Assembly (NCBI GenBank): GCA_963281255.1
Contig: OY725488.1
Span: 4,921,925-4,985,924 of the forward strand
Length of the DNA stretch: 64,000 nt
Reading direction: 5' to 3'
DNA from: Aphrocallistes beatrix
Taxonomy: Eukaryota > Porifera > Hexactinellida > Sceptrulophora > Aphrocallistidae
Position 1 is the stretch's first letter; each line of letters opens with the position of its first letter. The notes below the pieces were generated by a model that did not search any database, was not told where the DNA came from, and saw only the letters and a list, made by a program, of their open reading frames with translations. A program made the translations under genes and the position numbers. Positions 11,145 through 58,148 of this stretch are shown piece after piece.

Positions 11145-13274
11145 ATGGATATTCGCAATTTATTTGGATCAACCTTTTCCAAATCAGCTACTTCTCGCTT
11201 AAGAGAATTCAGTAGTGATTCAGATACTGGAGAAGATTCAATAAGTGAATCACTCCCATCCAAGAGATCATGTGTAGTACCATCATCTGCCGACATATCA
11301 CGGAAATACAACAAGAACTGGGAAAAAGATTTTCCATGGCTAGAATATGATAGCAACTTCCAAGGTGCATTTTGCAAAATATACAGAAAGGCTGGAACTA
11401 GGGGACATTCTTCACAAGGAAGCGAGGTGTGTGGGTCACAAAGCCATTACAGAATTGGAAAAAGGCAGTTCAAAAGATGAAAACACATGCCAGCAGTGAA
11501 TCCCACTTGAGACAAGTTGAAGCAGAGCTGATAGCAACTACTGGACAAACAATTGTACATGAACTACAACGTCTTGGAGATTCTGAGAGAAGCAAGAACC
11601 GGAAAGCCACCAAAGCAGTTTTTCGCTGCACTCACTACATGTGCAAACAGCACATTCCTCATACTACTAACTTCAGCAAGGTGATTGATCTTATTGTTTC
11701 TTGTGGTGGGAAAGATCTGGAAGAATTTGTTCGTAAAGCACCAAAGAATGCATCTTACAATTCAACAGATGCGGTCATTGATTTTCTTGAAGCAATAGGA
11801 GTATGGGTTGAAGAATTCCAAGTTAGCCAGGTTAGCAATGCTCCATTTTTCAGCTTGATGGCTGAAGAGTGTCTCGATGTAGCTAATATTGAGGAGCTGT
11901 CTGTATACTGTCGATGGGTGGAAAATGGTATACCAGTAGAACATTTCATGGAAATATTCCAACTGAAGAAAACAGATACTCAATCGATCTATTCGGTGTT
12001 GCTTGACTGGCTGAAGAAGAAGGATTTGCAGTGCAAAAAGCCTGTGGGTATGGGCTTTGATGGAGCTGCAACATTTGCTAGAAAGAAATCGGGCGTGCAA
12101 GCACGTCTGAAGAAGCATGCACCTCATTCACTCTTCGTCCACTGTCATTGTCATTGCTTCAACTTGCTTTGTGTTCAATCCGCAAACTGCACTGAGGGAA
12201 TCAAGCACATGTATATTACACTCACTACATTGTGGAAATTTTTCAGGATTCGCCGAGAGATGCCAGCACCTGAAAGAGATACAAAAGGCACTAGACCTTC
12301 CTGAGCTGAAGATTGTCAAACCATCTGACACCAGGTGGTTCTCCCTTTAAAAATGTGTTTCAACTGTGAAGAAATGTTATGGGGCAATTGTGCTTGTACT
12401 TGAAAGTATTTATGAAGAATCCCACGAGCCGGAGGCACTTGGTATTTGCAAGATCTTATCCATATCCTCTACATTGTTCACCATATATCTCCTTGACTAC
12501 ATTCTCCCTGAGGTATCAAAGCTGAGTAAGAGTCTCCAAGCAGAGAATTTAGATTTGTCCATCATCTCAAGCCTTGTGGATGCTACCCTGCACACTTTGG
12601 AAGATGTACTCCACTCTGCAGCTAAGTGGGTGTTAGATTTGCAAGAAGTAAAAGAGGAGATGTATACAAATGCAGGCATCAGCTTCAACAGTGATGATGT
12701 AGCAGTATTTCAGGGCCGAGTAACAGTCATTTTACTTCAAATTGAAAGAAAATATCCAAAACCGCTTCACTTCACAAGATATTGTCACTTGTTTCAGTTT
12801 TTTTTATCCAAAGAAGACTCGAAATTCTTCAGAAAACTCTACGTGTGGAGAAGACCAAGTAAAATTGCTATTTGAGCATTATGGGTCTGAGTTTCCAGCT
12901 TAAACAGTTTTAGGGGATGAATTTATAATGCCAGCAGCCATCACTTCAAGTTCAGATCTACTCACAGAGTGGAAAACCTTTTGGCGATATATCACGAATC
13001 AACCAAGGGAAGACATCAAGGAACAGTTAAGGAGATATCTACTAGCTTCATGATGCATACGATGTTCCCAAACTTGAGCATCTTAGCTAATGTTTGCCTA
13101 ACCATTCCGGTTGGAAATGCTTCGGTTGAACGTTCATTTTCCCATATGAAAATGATAAAGTCCCGTCTGAGAAATCGACTTGGAGAAGCCAATCTTTCAT
13201 ATTTGATGAAAATTGCATTGGAATCGCCTGATACCTTGTCAGATGAAGATCTTGAACAGATAGTGAATGTTTGA
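11145..13274 (+). pseudogene. hAT transposase pseudogene (TTF zinc finger, hAT dimerisation domain)
   Basis: The chosen ATG at 11145 begins MDIRNLFGSTF. A TTF-type zinc-finger region follows (KDFPWLEYDSNFQGAFCK to ~11500), with one expected Cys replaced (CKIY). The DDE/RNase H-like body runs through GVWVEEF, FFSLMAEECLDVANIEELSV and VGMGFDGAATFA (12045-12080) to DTRWFSL. The C-terminal dimerisation domain reads FPNLSILANVCLTIPVGNAS, then VERSFSHMKMIKSRLRNRL, then LSYLMKIALESP (13065-13235). Breaks: frameshifts near 11425, 12215, 12850 and 13045, plus an in-frame TAA at 12348-12350. The order matches vertebrate ZNF862/ZMYM-like hAT relatives. No host-gene domestication is suggested, because the frame is lost. 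Confidence 0.85.
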
Positions 13275-23835: not shown

Positions 23836-26016
23836 CTAAGAGTTAAAAGAGAACTGATATGCAACCAGAGGCATAGCCAGCCCAATCTTATGGTGCGGCA
23901 ATTTCCGGAATTTTCATGAAGAGGATGCGGCACACAATGTTAATTTGGAAATTCTGGTGGGCACCGCCCTTTAAGGGTGCGGCCATGGCCGCATTTGCCG
24001 CACCCTGGCTACGCCTCTGTATGTAACCCCTCGTAGAAAGTCCATCTTAGGGCGAGTAAGATAACCATCAATTAGAGTTTCTAGTGCTCTTTCATGGTTG
24101 GCATTGTTCTTTCTTTTCGGGGGATCTCTGCCACTCATGCAAAACGCTTGTTCACCTCGATTAACCCCTGCTCTTTTTTTAGAACATGAAGGATTAAGAC
24201 ATGTGGGTGGAAAAGGACCTATGCCATGCCTCGACAGCATTCGTGGTTCTTGGAAGTCCCTGATGAACCATAAGATGATTATTCCACATTTCTAAAGGGA
24301 AAGTGCTTGGGAATACAATTGGAGTGTTGGCTAATTGTCTGCCTAAATAAGTAGATTCGAAATAGAGGGCTAAGTCATAAAGATCTGAGAGACAAATCCA
24401 TAAAAATGCATTGAAGACCGCCGGTACATATGTTGGTGTTGCGAATGCTAATGCAGGAATCATTCTTATTTGAAGGCAAAACTTTAATCATCTTGGCATT
24501 TTTTCTGAAGTCCAAATTCTTGAACTTTTCGCCAAACGTTTTGTATAAGATGGAGAAACACCCCTTTACTTGAGTTTCTGGGAAATATTCTTTGAATGCA
24601 TTTATCGCTGCTTTCTCAAAGTCAACGATGAGGTGTGTGGGACATGCGTTAGCGCATAGTCTTTTGCATTCTCCCCACATTTTATGGTACGTTTTTTCTA
24701 ATTTATTGGGTAATAAGACGAATAAACTGGGTTATAAATGTCCATCTTTCATTGGATTGCTCCCTCCTTTTAAACCATGAATGACGTATAACTGGTAAAA
24801 CAAATTAGGTGAAGTTTTGAACGTACCATCTGCCAACCACACACTAGAAGTGCTCAGAATTTCCAGATTTACTCAGTTCCAAAAATTAATATTCTTTGAT
24901 TTCCAGTAACCGAACCTGAATCGTAAAGAAGAAAATGTTGACCTTTATCTGTTATTTTGTAGGTATCTGGGATTTCAAGAGAGTTGAGTGAACTAGGCTC
25001 TGGAGGAACATTTGCAGTTCTTTTACGTTCTCTACGGACGGTTTGTTTCAAGCTTTCAAGCCTAGGAAGTTTTACAGCTGATGCCTCAGGCAATTGACTT
25101 AATGAATTTGTCAGTATGGAATGTGTTCCTTCTTGTGTTTCAGCAGCCTTCCGTTTCATGCCAGTTTTCATCTTGGAACAATGGAAAGTAGCGTAGTTAG
25201 ATTCATGATTATGTTCATTGGACCTTGAAACAACTAAATCCCCACATGTATGAAGCCTTGCTTTGCAAATCCCTCGCTCGATACATTGCCAGTGAACTTT
25301 ATTATTTACTGTACAGTGCTTGGTATAAACAAAATTGTTTTCCATGATGCATTCCCCGCCTCTTTCCGTTTTAGTTATCAGAAACGCGGATACACCTGAA
25401 GTGTTTATGGAAGAATTTGAAATCTGGTCATTATTCTCTTTTGTAAATGGTAGCGTTTGCTGCCCGTCATCTGTGCAAATGGTATTTGAAGCTGATTCAT
25501 TCGAAAATGTTGTACCCTGAGAATAGACGGGGATCTTCAAACGATTGGTCTTGTGGATAGCCATCTAATGTGCTAGTTCTTGGTGATTCAGCGAGTAATT
25601 CTGTTAAACTCCGATTGACTTCAGCAGCTTGTCTCTCCAGACTGAGTTGAGCATTGTATATCTCTAAAGTCTCATTGATGAATACTGTGATGGAAACTGT
25701 GATGATTTGATCAGTCCAAATTGTTGGAATGCCGTCTATTACAGAAAAGGCTAAATACATTTAGCAGAACTGGGTTGGCAAGATTTGGTTGAACATTCCC
25801 AAGAGTGGCGAGAAATTTTCCCTCGGTGAGAGATAGATTACGGTTACGTAATGGTCGAACCAAAGCACGAAAGGTTTGGGCATTCATCTCAGATAAACAA
25901 GATATCAGCTGTGTGCGGACTTGGAGAGTAACAGCATCAAGATTTACGACATTGGGATTGTTATGGAAAAACTTTGCTCTTGCAAAAAGAGGCCAAGGAA
26001 CATACATAGAATCCAT
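23836..26016 (-). pseudogene. MULE transposase pseudogene (FLYWCH finger plus DDE)
   Basis: From the 5' side, 25497-26016 encodes an N-terminal region in two frames with no known motif. A FLYWCH-type zinc finger follows (~25190-25400): FLITKTERGG, then HWQCIERGICKARLHT, then HNHES, with the expected Cys and His residues. The catalytic core has WLADGTFK (first Asp, ~24820), LIVDFEKAAINAF (second Asp, ~24620) and NAVEAWHRSF (Glu, ~24220). The C-terminus reads ERALETLIDGYL and LRGVTY. Breaks: a stop at about 24870, several frameshifts, and a hAT MITE (23866-24019) inserted near the end. Skipping the MITE and one duplication gives a short tail closing at 23836-23838. FLYWCH plus MULE core is a known animal arrangement. 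Confidence 0.85.
23866..24019. mobile_element. hAT MITE inside the MULE transposase
   Basis: Ends CAGAGGCATAGCCAG and CTGGCTACGCCTCTG are inverted repeats flanked by 8-bp duplications TATGCAAC / TATGTAAC (23858-23865, 24020-24027). 154 bp, GC-rich interior (GGTGCGGC motifs). Confidence 0.85.
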
Positions 26017-51704: not shown

Positions 51705-52121
51705 TTCTCGTCATAGGCCATCTCTACAAACAACATTGTTGCATCTCTATTTTGATTAGATTTGAAACTGACTAAATGTTTGAATCTGGCGGAGAATACA
51801 GGTAATTCAAATGACCTTATGTGATCAATTATCTGTGTTTTCCTAAACATGTATTTCATCATACCAGATTAAAATATTCAATCAGACCTTTGTTATTTTG
51901 TATTAATTTTAGGTTTAACTGACAGTCAGGCTCATAATGACAACCTAGATTTTGAATATACATAGCATTACTAGTAGGTACTTTTAAAAATTTAGCTCAG
52001 CTATACCCATTCCTGAAAACCGAGCCCAGCGAGTTCCTTCCTGTCCCAAAAACACCCAAATATCTATTTTGAATAGCAATGCAGTCGCGAATATTTCCAG
52101 ATCTGTGGCCAAAGCTCCCGG

Positions 52122-52451
52122 CAGAGTTGCACGCAGGCAGGCCCGGCCCGCGGGCTACCCGCGGGCCATGCGGGCCGAATATAATAGTTTTCGGGCTCTG
52201 CGGGCCGCAAATCTTAAAAAAGGAATACTTAAGTAAATGGAACTTTGTTAGTTTCCACTTATTTGTGTTTGCAGAAACTCACTCCCATAAAAGGATTCCC
52301 TAAATGTTTTTCTATAGTTAGTAACTTACAAAGTGGGCCAAAAATATTTATGCGGGCTTCTTGCGGGCCGAAAATTTAGCAGCGGGCTGCGGGCCGGGTT
52401 GACTTAAAATTGCGGGCCGCGGTTACAAATTTCGGCCCGCGTGCAACTCTG
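52122..52451. mobile_element. GC-rich hAT MITE inside the OTU domain
   Basis: Ends CAGAGTTGCACGC and GCGTGCAACTCTG are inverted repeats flanked by GCTCCCGG / GTCCCCGG (52114-52121, 52452-52459), 8 bp with two differences. The body is made of GCGGGCC repeats. Removing it with one duplication joins the OTU frame on the minus strand. Confidence 0.85.
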
Positions 52452-52572
52452 GTCCCCGGTCTAGACATTCCTCTTTCATTAACGCAATCCTTAATATTTT
52501 TATAATTACTGCTTTGATAAACAAATTTTGTCTTAAGGAACTCATTACAACTATTTCTCAACTTATTTAACA

Positions 52573-53066
52573 CAAGCGCGCTTCGCTTGCTTGCGCTGCG
52601 CGGCTGGCGGACACTAAGTGTCCGCCGGAGGCTCCCTTCGGTCGCCTGGAGGTGACATTGGTTAATTATAAGGGAGATATCATCTCTAAATATGTCCATC
52701 TTAGTGTTAATTAAAACCGATTTCACTCGAAAAATCACCAAATTCGTCAATTTTAAAATTTTTAATACGTAATGATAACGTCATAACAAAGTGATGAGTC
52801 ATCATTTTTTGATGAAAGTCGCATCATATGTGAGGTATGTTAGTATACAGATTCTATTAAACTTTCAGCCTTCTATCTCCTATAATGGCTGAGTTATGCC
52901 CGAATAACTGTGTTGCTTAACTTTTGAAAATGTGACAATGACGTCATAATTCCATGATGAGTCGACATTTTGCTCTGAACTCAGAACTTACTGGAGCCAT
53001 AGCCAAAAGACTCCCACATGCCAAAAATCAGCCTTCTGCGCCTGGCAGTTTCTTCAATCAATTCGT

Positions 53067-53110
<44 letters not shown>

Positions 53111-53129
53111 CGAGTTTTAATAGTAAGGA
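52573..53129 (-). mobile_element. Helitron-like copy inside the OTU domain, complete
   Basis: On the minus strand it starts TCCTTACTATTAAAACTCG after host A and ends GCGCGCTTG before host T, with no duplication. Removing it restores the OTU reading frame exactly (VDN then MLNKLRNS). This fixes the family boundaries independently of the tandem pair at 21848-22918. Confidence 0.88.
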
Positions 53130-56100
53130 TGTTGTCTACTAAAAATGTTCTTAATTTAGCATGATAACAAGTACTACCAGTTAATAAATAAGATACGGTC
53201 GAAAAATTGCAATTTCCGTCACCTAGAATAGGCACAATTTTATTAGGAAAATATTTTCTTATATTTTCTCTCCATATTGAAGCTTTATATGTATTCAAGA
53301 GAGTAATTAAATGGAATATTAAATTGTCTACAAATAATAATTTGCCAAGCACTATCAGCTGGACGGAATCCTGGCAAATCAGGGCATAAAACATCTTGCT
53401 CTACTATTTCTTCGTGAGTTATTACATTAGTCGCAGGTTCAGGTGCTAGATTCTTAGCTGTATAAGAAGAATCACTCCTTAATTCAGATAATTTCATCGT
53501 TGATATTTTTATTTTCACCGACCAATTTCTTGCAAACAAGAGAAAAAGTAGTACTTTTCGATTCTAGATAGCCACAATGCCTTTTAGGTTTCCTTGCCCA
53601 TTCTTCACTACTGTATTCCTCTAAAGAATTCCTATTACGTTTATGGACCTTGAATATTTTATTGACTCTTGGGTGACAAGCAAAGTTATATGCTTTTAAC
53701 CTACTACTTATACTTGTATACATAATATTAATAAAGTTTCCTGGTCTTAAGTAATGAAATTAATCAATGTTATAATCCACAAGTAATAGACTATCTATCA
53801 TATTATTACTTACCTCTTCTACCATTATGGAGCGCCATTATTTTAGAACTTCATGGTATTAAGTTAGGAATGAAGTGTGGCCATTATAGTAATGCATTGA
53901 TTGAAAATTGAATGCGAATAGTTAAAATAGATATTTTAGATTCTAAAACCAATTTAAATATCCTTTTTTGCTTATTTTTGCATTGGAAAATTCAAAAATT
54001 TTAAAATAATGTCTTCCAAATGGCGATTTTTCCCTATAGGTCTTATTTTCATTATTCTCAAAGGCATTACAATCACTATCAGTGTCGCTATCTTATAATT
54101 ATAATTATTATATCATCTAGAGAAGATGAACTTAAAGTAAAATATGACTCTAAATTGCAAATACTATCCTTCACATTTGTAAAGTTTTTAGATAAAAATA
54201 TTAGACACAAATAATGAAAAACATTATTTATTTTATAAATATCAGTACATCTAACCATAAATCCTATGGCGTGTAATAATAGTTTTCTAGAATTTTTATC
54301 TAATTTAAACTTTCTATTGATATGATGTCCTATAGCATTCAATAAATGGGCAGAACATAAGTGGATAATTACATTATAATCTATTAATTCTCCTTATGGA
54401 TCAAATTCTAATTTAGTCCAACAATTATTTAAGTAAGTTTCTAAACCAGTTTTGAGAAAGACATTACAGACGCTATGAATTACCCAACTATAGTCTATCT
54501 CTACCTGGCTAATGTTAAGTTCATTCCCTAATACTTTCTTTGCATCGAGCGACCATTTATGTAAGAAGTATGTTATTTCAGCACTACTATGGGCAGAGCT
54601 GATCATCTCTGCAATTGGTACAGGGCTAGTCGAAAAGTCTGGATGACCAACGGTCAAAGCATAATAAAAAACCTTTTTCTGGATTTATTTTACGAAGTAG
54701 AGAACCGGTGGCATCTAAATGGACAATAACTCTTTTTTTAAATGTTCTTAGAATTTTAATTTGATATTCAGTATATAAATGTAAAATAAAAGGATTGTAT
54801 GATAAATATTGTATATAACCATTAAAATGTTTGTTATTTATGATTTTATAGTAATGGCCCTGCAATTCAGTTAATTCTTTCCAATTATCATTAGAAAATC
54901 TGTTAAGAGATAAAAGATCTGATTTGGCTTTACATAAAGTATTGGCACTCCTTATTTTATTAAAATTTCCATAATCCAAGGCCAATTCCTTATTGTTGGA
55001 AGACAAAAATTGATCATAAAAATATTTACTTACAGGCATTCTGGTAAGATCTGAGGCTACTTGAAGTCTCAGTTTTAGATAAATGTCTAGCATAGGAAAT
55101 TTTTGTCATCATGGTGCTCACTAGACAATGTCCCGATCGCAGTATTTTCTACATTAATGTGATCAACTTTACAAATTAGAGGGTTGTCCTTAATTCTAAA
55201 TCTAAATTCAAGACAATTATTAAATTTGCATTGAGCCTTTGCTCTAAAAAATCAGCAGTTTTGTTTCCTACTACCAAATTTATTGAATCTTTTATATTTA
55301 AAGCACAAGACACAAACAAAAAGATCTAGCAATTTTGAACCAAATAGATTTGTCCAATCCTTTAAAAATGTATATTCGTCCCCGCTCACCTCGGTAATTG
55401 AATTCCACTCATCTAAATTAAGAAAAGAATTACCATCTATTACATTTTCAGATGCTTTAGAATCAATTACTACTTCTTTATCTACAAAATTTAATTCAGG
55501 CGTTTCGGAATCAATACAGTCCATAGCATCTAATTCAGAAATAGGAATAACTCCTGTTTCTGAATTAGCTACAATGGAATCTACTGAACAAGAAGGAAGA
55601 TCACGAGATTGTTCAACAACAGTCTCGTGATCTTCCTTACTCAGTTTACTAATAATCGATTGATGAAAAGAATTTAGAATTTCTACATTTTTACGGGTTG
55701 ATTGAATAAAATCAACATATAAATCTAGTTATTTGGGATTAATAATAATATAAGTGTTCCCAAACAGATCTAATGATTTGCATTTTATTTTATTTTCAAT
55801 TATCCATGCTTCTAATAAAAGACCATCATTTCTCCTTATAATTTTATATTCTTCCAACTCTAACATAAAGTTAACAGATTTAGTACAATATTCATTGGTC
55901 AGTAAAATGAAATTATCTTCACTTAGCGGGAGATTTACACCGAAATATTTCAGAATATCAACCCAAAGCACACTATCACAATTATGAAAATACCAAAAAT
56001 AGGTATTACTTGCCCCTGAATGGGGTGGGGAAGTAACTTTACATGCGTGTGAGAAAAGAGAAGGATCATAACACCCGGATGCAATAATATGGAATAAAAG

Positions 56101-56531
56101 GTCATTGAACAATTCTAACTCTAACCTTTTTAAACTAATATCAACTAAACCATTAATACTATTACTACGAAAATCTATGCTATCTAATATTTAACTAAAC
56201 CTAAACTATCTATTTTAAATTTCAATTGATCTATCGCTTGCGTGAAGATGTCATGATACGAAGGGAGTACGGGAAACATAACAGGTAGCTCACATGACAG
56301 ACGCTCCTTTAATCTATCCTGCACTTTCCCGCGATTAAATTTCCATGTGGAATAGAGGAAAGACCGTTTATTGTTACGGTTTATCCCAAAAACGGTCTGA
56401 GACAAAGTACCCCATATTGGCCTGGGATTACTTTTATCCTACTTTTCCAATTTTTCTTCTAGGGTATTAAATTGGCTCAAAGTGTCTAGGCCCAGAAATG
56501 CTTCAATGAATTGGTCAATTTTAGATGCTAT

Positions 56532-57700: not shown

Positions 57701-58039
57701 ATGCCGACCAGTTTCCCGGAACCTGGTTTCAAGAGTAACAACACATCTAAACATCGTGTGGCTCTTTTCAAGATGCCCCAGGAACCACATCAACTTAGAC
57801 ACGCTTAGGTTCGGATACTCCGCAGAGATGATATAGTAGACGAGTTAAAGGGTGTTTACGTCTGCGTGAATCACTTTAGGACTAAATATATCGAGTACAC
57901 GCACTAGGTTCCCAACGGAGGTGATACTTTTCGTGAAATCCCTGGATTGAACCCAAAGCTGAAAGTTGATAGTGTACCAGTCTTTCTACCTGGATGTCCC
58001 TCATACTACTCACAATCTGCAGACAAGCTTTTCTTATAA
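57701..58039 (+). pseudogene. THAP-domain pseudogene
   Basis: From ATG 57701 one frame runs MPTSFPEPGFKSNNTSKH, ALFKMPQEPHQLRHA, a TAG where Trp is usual, then VRILRRDDIVDELKGVYV, CVNHF, a second TAG, then VPNGGDTFREIPGLNPKLK and PGCPSYYS to TAA 58037-58039. The C-x2-H ligand pair (CVNH) survives, but both N-terminal Cys are Phe, so zinc binding is lost. It is more decayed than the THAP gene at 28023-28436 and of a different subtype. The last 19 bp belong to a perfect hairpin. Confidence 0.8.
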
Positions 58040-58093
58040 TGACTGATTACGAGGTTTTACCTCGTAATCAGTCATTATAAGAAAAGCTTGTCT
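58021..58093. repeat. Perfect hairpin, 35-bp arms
   Basis: AGACAAGCTTTTCTTATAAT (58021-58040) and the following 15 bases are exactly complementary to 58059-58093, with TTT as loop. The left arm is the end of the THAP frame, so the right arm is an inverted duplication of it. Confidence 0.9.
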
Positions 58094-58148
58094 GTATTGT
58101 TTTCTATGTCTGGCACAGCCGTGTAACTGTTTGAAATTTCAAAAAATG

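Follow-up and report, generated by a model that had tools for sequence, protein, structure and literature searches.

A degenerate stretch of coding sequence in the hexactinellid sponge Aphrocallistes beatrix raises the question of whether a transposase with DDE motifs can be joined to an OTU cysteine-protease domain in a single mobile-element protein and, if so, what a transposon would gain from such a domain. The locus lies on the minus strand, from ~56.5 to 51.9 kb, of a 64,000-nucleotide stretch of contig OY725488.1 (assembly GCA_963281255.1, positions 4,921,925 to 4,985,924), hereafter called the window. An earlier note, made from the letters of the window, had proposed the fusion for this copy. 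Our analysis bears out a fusion of DDE-motif transposase and OTU domain in a mobile element: the two halves share the long open frames of relatives elsewhere in the genome, the elements have terminal repeats and target-site duplications (TSDs), and the OTU catalytic triad is retained.

The copy in the window is itself decayed. Four motifs had marked the locus, and they do follow one another on the minus strand in the protein order HLDATGS (open frame 55105-54629), EIDYSWVIHSV (54684-54397), GDGNC (53400-52984) and CHYEP (51996-51862). They had also been described as one run of coding sequence, which does not hold: when compared by tblastn with an intact 1257-residue relative (G000 C6:2899008-2902778), the locus falls into 11 pieces, the best of them 75% identical over 184 residues. 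These matches rule out a chance occurrence of the motifs. Ten of the 11 pieces lie on the minus strand and that with the predicted catalytic Glu lies on the opposite one. As the pieces occupy all three minus frames and are broken by stops, one inverted segment and two inserted repeats, we conclude that this is a dead copy of a DNA transposon. Its known siblings (L002-L005, L030 and L031) are mostly 92-95% identical to it in DNA (88-98% for individual pieces). Sibling L030 is without the inversion, which relative to L030 spans 211 bp (53747-53957) and flips the predicted catalytic-Glu segment, and without both inserts. Since the L030 alignment continues down to 49184, the element in the window probably extends leftward past 51859, where the earlier note had set its edge. 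Terminal inverted repeats (TIRs) of the window copy were searched for and not found.

Evidence for the fusion comes from the genome at large (100.5 Mb, 28 contigs), which contains 142 matches to the first-Asp transposase piece of the window copy and 106 to its OTU piece. Among the former are 16 open frames of at least 1000 residues, and in all 16 the transposase and OTU matches fall in the same frame, as called from an equal frame length for the two rows. This rules out that transposase and OTU are adjacent separate genes, the arrangement that the earlier note had named as speaking against a fusion, and, for these frames, answers the question it had raised of whether both halves always share one open reading frame (ORF). 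Across all rows, most of which are fragments, an OTU match follows within 4.5 kb on the same strand for 79 of the 142 transposase rows (70 of 124 merged loci); this pairing count is a lower bound, its input being all 142 transposase rows, all 106 OTU rows and 11 picked from 149 Pfam-OTU rows. The relatives encode a single protein of 1.0-1.3 thousand residues, in which an N-terminal Cys/His cluster that may bind zinc and DNA is followed by a D-D-CxxH-E core, a long, variable, basic linker and the C-terminal OTU domain. Frames of 684-704 residues were considered as a possible family devoid of OTU: of the three, two are tandem-duplication copies that end before the OTU domain, and one diverges from its relative immediately upstream of that domain. 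At one locus (G000 C8:1790087-1801133) the transposase stretch occurs three times at a spacing of exactly 5321 bp, and the copies agree over 1994 bp without a difference. Only one copy of this tandem duplication has an OTU match next to it. Pattern scans of collections of viral contigs (26 matches) and genome contigs (50 matches) gave 0 confirmed relatives.

The transposase half is defined by its motifs. The first Asp ([HN]LD[AS]TG), the second Asp (E[IVM]D[YF]SWA), CSAH and Glu ([ST]N..ENW) are invariant in seven of seven aligned copies, with 75 residues between the two Asp motifs in every copy and 221-233 from the second Asp to Glu. Residues in this order are typical of DDE transposases bearing CxxH, and the corresponding RNase H-like fold is predicted here from the motifs. 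Among eight rows searched, Pfam found no PF10551 domain of Mutator-like elements (MULEs; 0/8 at E up to 10, where filters remove most matches above 0.1), no FLYWCH and no rve, and the genome's 121 MULE matches include no member of this family.

The OTU half is readily recognised. PF02338 scores above its curated cut-off in all 16 long-frame relatives, and in an 8-row alignment it is found in six rows (best 1e-9), the remaining two stopping before the OTU domain. The catalytic triad of Asp, Cys and His is the same in 8/8 aligned rows, although identity to the first row falls as low as 30%; the triad is thus not generally missing, as the earlier note had allowed that it might be. Among solved structures, the OTU profile is closest to OTUD1 (2.3e-5), OTUD5 (2.6e-4) and OTUD3 (6.6e-4), which are deubiquitinases, and we predict that the transposon domain has the same activity. 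Nonsynonymous divergence (dN) in the OTU domain is about that in the core (0.23 and 0.26, respectively, for the pair L064/L049, whose synonymous divergence is ~3); synonymous divergence is saturated in nearly all pairs. Core and OTU also give the same grouping, in which the 1257-residue protein joins 1102, proteins 1037, 1044, 1041 and 1095 fall together, and 1272 stands apart, as would be expected from one old fusion.

The ends of the element were traced in two families, with two copies each: the 1041-residue family (C15, C4) and the 1102-residue family (C2, C8). All four copies, 6164 to 6661 bp long, have the same outer 40 bp at both ends (40/40) and sit between perfect 9-bp TSDs (GTTTTTGTT, AATTATAAG, GGAAAATGG and AGCATAGAT), with no longer exact match, so that the terminal repeats and target duplications for which the earlier note had called are present in both families. 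Their long inverted ends are tandem arrays of 185- or 321-bp units, and the unit number differs between the ends in three of the four copies; the 185-bp unit is present 5.6 times at one end and 7.8 or 8.8 times at the other. The traced elements therefore have a foldback architecture. Copies at different sites are 99.8% identical over 6442 bp in one pair and 99.6% over 6138 bp in the other, so both families have moved recently. Around the 1257-residue frame, tandem-unit ends were not found within ~2.3 kb. The C8 copy of the 1102-residue element is inserted in sequence resembling a 559-bp dispersed repeat. This repeat recurs many times in the window and, in near-identical form, in the genome, frequently as tandem or inverted pairs.

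These ends are like those of FB-NOF, Tm1 and Tetris, which are likewise long, inverted and built of tandem units whose number varies between ends and copies, and the TSDs are like those of Mutator foldbacks (9 bp in Tm1, 8-10 bp in Tetris, in the available portions of PMC3169594 and PMC4079207). Unlike Tm1, the sponge elements lack a Pfam match to MULE or FLYWCH and carry a C-terminal OTU domain; the term OTU occurs 0 times in the main text of the Tm1 paper. Ginger1 parallels them in protein layout, its DDE-type transposase likewise ending in an OTU domain, but it has a Gypsy-type integrase (rve), TIRs of 40-270 bp and 4-bp CCGG/CCGT TSDs (available sections of PMC2836005). The 9-bp TSDs of unrelated sequence and the lack of rve rule out membership of Ginger1 for the elements described here. 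Helentrons and Helitrons also carry an OTU-like protease (PMC4067079 and PMC9741609, in part) but are Rep/helicase elements with no DDE core, and their OTU domains are much less similar.

The OTU domain itself points to a connection with Ginger1. The genome holds at least 149 Pfam matches to OTU. One of them, a 220-residue stand-alone frame (L081; G000 C15:2605500-2609900), lies downstream of integrase-like frames (L082) with an rve match of 2.7e-7 (31.2 bits, slightly below the cut-off of 32.6) and a GPY/F-like stretch seen by eye. We regard this pair as a Ginger1-like element, the only such locus read in context; its OTU frame is separate, ~0.66 kb past the last integrase-side frame, and an intron could join the two. 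OTU frames of about this length recur across the genome. Two further proteins served for comparison: a 1970-residue frame (L086; G000 C2:4502500-4504500) with a PIF1-like helicase (6.4e-47) and an OTU domain at its end, judged Helitron-like from these two parts, and a host-type protein resembling OTUD5 (L083; 2.2e-53). Contig C7 has a 1947-residue frame with an OTU match. In BLASTP, eight foldback OTU queries matched the Ginger1-like OTU at 4e-8 to 4e-25, the helicase-linked OTU at 0.27 to 4e-7 and the OTUD5-like protein at 0.37 to 0.001. The match to Ginger1-like OTU modules spans up to ~190-200 residues and includes a leading segment, WQ[KR].KC, found in five of eight foldback rows and three of three Ginger1-like rows, with a variant in the remaining foldback rows. 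Because the foldback OTU is closer to the Ginger1-like domain than to the OTUD5-like or helicase-linked ones, the OTU domain and its WQ..KC segment were probably transferred together, as one module, from one type of transposon to another.

Taken together, our preferred reading, to which we assign a probability of about 0.72, is that the copy in the window is the dead remnant of a cut-and-paste, foldback-type transposon with DDE motifs, whose OTU domain would deubiquitinate in aid of transposition and probably belongs to a module that has moved between transposon types. As the domain's likeliest role we infer the removal of ubiquitin to assist transposition. The N-terminal part would bind the repeated units in the element ends, and the D-D-E core would cut and join DNA. 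The substrates of the OTU domain would be the ubiquitinated transposase or ubiquitinated host proteins at the transposition complex, and their deubiquitination would stabilise that complex or steer repair.

Several results weigh against this reading. The earlier note had called for profile searches of both halves, and the OTU half stood up well, but the transposase half has no Pfam transposase family in eight rows, its weak non-OTU matches (best 0.058) being to unrelated families. A transposase-core profile found nothing significant among PDB structures (best 2.3), and hhalign against six MULE proteins of the genome was not significant, with MULE profiles that were shallow (effective number of sequences 1.0-1.7). 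A single-sequence structure model of one window piece had a predicted local distance difference test score of 42.7, too low for use. No OTU match lies near 63 of the 142 transposase rows, of which the three examined are cut or truncated copies. For the module, the tree is weakly supported and its host and helicase-linked rows sit on very long branches, and we therefore base the transfer on the BLAST scores and the common pre-OTU segment; Ginger1-like OTU domains also match the OTUD5-like protein at ~5e-6.

As there is neither a Pfam MULE match nor a profile match to the MULEs of the genome, we do not file the transposase as a member of Mutator, and its membership of that superfamily is unproven. 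The same two results can be taken further, to mean that the transposase represents a superfamily distinct from Mutator, and the distance from the second Asp to CxxH (45-47 residues, against ~21 in the genome's MULE L069, counted on the translation) points the same way. However, the shallowness of the MULE profiles blunts the comparison, and the first-Asp and CxxH motifs are, we presume, like those of Mutator. In addition, a 9-bp TSD with long, repeat-built TIRs is typical of most foldback elements placed in Mutator (PMC3169594 and PMC4079207, in part). We regard a separate superfamily as unlikely on this balance, and we hold as equally doubtful the broader proposal that a deubiquitinase module of OTU and WQ..KC travels between Ginger1-like and foldback elements because it serves transposition, with the transposase as its own DDE lineage outside Mutator.

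The position of the OTU domain at the C-terminus, after a long, variable, basic linker, would also suit a protease that cleaves its own protein and releases the transposase from the C-terminal part, and OTU domains of viral polymerase proteins are among the weaker PDB matches. We consider self-cleavage improbable, given that the domain's profile comes nearest, among solved structures, to the OTUD deubiquitinases named above and that the Ginger1-like relative has its OTU domain in a frame of its own, even if an intron could join it. Some OTU-fold domains elsewhere are non-catalytic, and the domain could in the same way bind ubiquitin or chromatin with no need of catalysis; we give this little credence, since Asp, Cys and His persist in every aligned row despite the low identity between rows. 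That the OTU domain is a functionless chance passenger is disfavoured and very improbable: Mutator-type elements often capture foreign DNA (PMC6446971, in part), but this domain is present in every long open frame, in rows that are ~30% identical in their OTU part, and has a dN close to that of the core.

The earlier note had called a mobile element with its own deubiquitinase-like domain unusual, which overstates the case. Ginger1 transposases with a C-terminal OTU or Ulp1 domain are published, as are Mutator elements of several species with Ulp1, likewise a protease of ubiquitin-like proteins in a Mutator-type transposon but not OTU (PMC2836005, in part), and so are Helentrons with OTU (PMC4067079, in part). 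Helitrons carry active deubiquitinases of non-OTU type, and the OTU domains of transposons were stated in 2022 to be untested (available part of PMC9741609). Among the top-ranked literature results, which cover older work incompletely, none describes an OTU domain in an element of foldback or Mutator type. What is new here is a foldback-type carrier of OTU and an OTU plus WQ..KC module common to it and Ginger1-like transposons.

The features of the window copy are collected in Table 1.

Table 1. Features of the decayed transposon copy, in window coordinates; residues are those of the 1257-residue relative.
Feature	Position	Strand	Remarks
C-terminal OTU piece, catalytic His (NLGCHYEP)	51916..52008	-	58% identity, residues 1216-1246
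OTU piece (ATDLEIFATAL...FSGMG)	52005..52118	-	76% identity, residues 1179-1216
Insert like a miniature inverted-repeat transposable element, short inverted ends GCAGAGTTGCACGC / GCGTGCAACTCTG, interrupts OTU region	~52120..52452		missing from sibling L030
OTU middle piece	52418..52579	-	40% identity, residues 1134-1191
559-bp dispersed repeat, AT microsatellite at its end, within OTU domain	52572..53130		missing from L030
OTU piece, GDGNC (catalytic Asp and Cys)	53119..53292	-	52% identity, residues 1086-1143
Pre-OTU segment GFRPADSAWQIIIC	53291..53494	-	49% identity, residues 1021-1085; counterpart precedes Ginger1-like OTU modules
Transposase C-terminal part downstream of Glu	53508..53750	-	within match to residues 814-998
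Inverted segment, predicted catalytic Glu region (SNALIEN)	53756..53956	+	66% identity, residues 853-919, opposite strand
Transposase piece, second Asp (EIDYSWV) and CSAH	54136..54681	-	75% identity, residues 613-796
Transposase piece, first Asp (HLDATGS)	54683..55069	-	64% identity, residues 481-610
N-terminal region, Cys/His cluster (CKFNNC ... EH), putative zinc-/DNA-binding	55102..56148	-	39% identity, residues 136-469
Transposase N-terminal end	56208..56516	-	35% identity, residues 26-120

Other features were observed in the window and the genome. A separate, unrelated Mutator-type remnant occupies 24540-25564 on the minus strand of the window, with a MULE match (24540-24842) beside a FLYWCH ORF (2e-8). 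An ORF at 11429-12304 on the plus strand matches DUF4371 (4.6e-8) and is presumably a relative of hAT-type transposases. At 58020-58094 two 36-nt arms, 3 nt apart, repeat each other perfectly in inverted orientation. In mitochondrial COX1 (contig 28), 11 TGA codons are read as Trp, and 11/11 AGA codons stand opposite non-Arg residues in the best PDB match (a mammal-like COX1; compared by eye), a codon usage indicative of an invertebrate animal.

Because these elements consist of one gene between defined ends and exist as intact copies that are nearly identical, they make the role of a transposon OTU domain directly testable. That two unrelated types of transposon in the same genome carry related OTU modules suggests an activity worth having.

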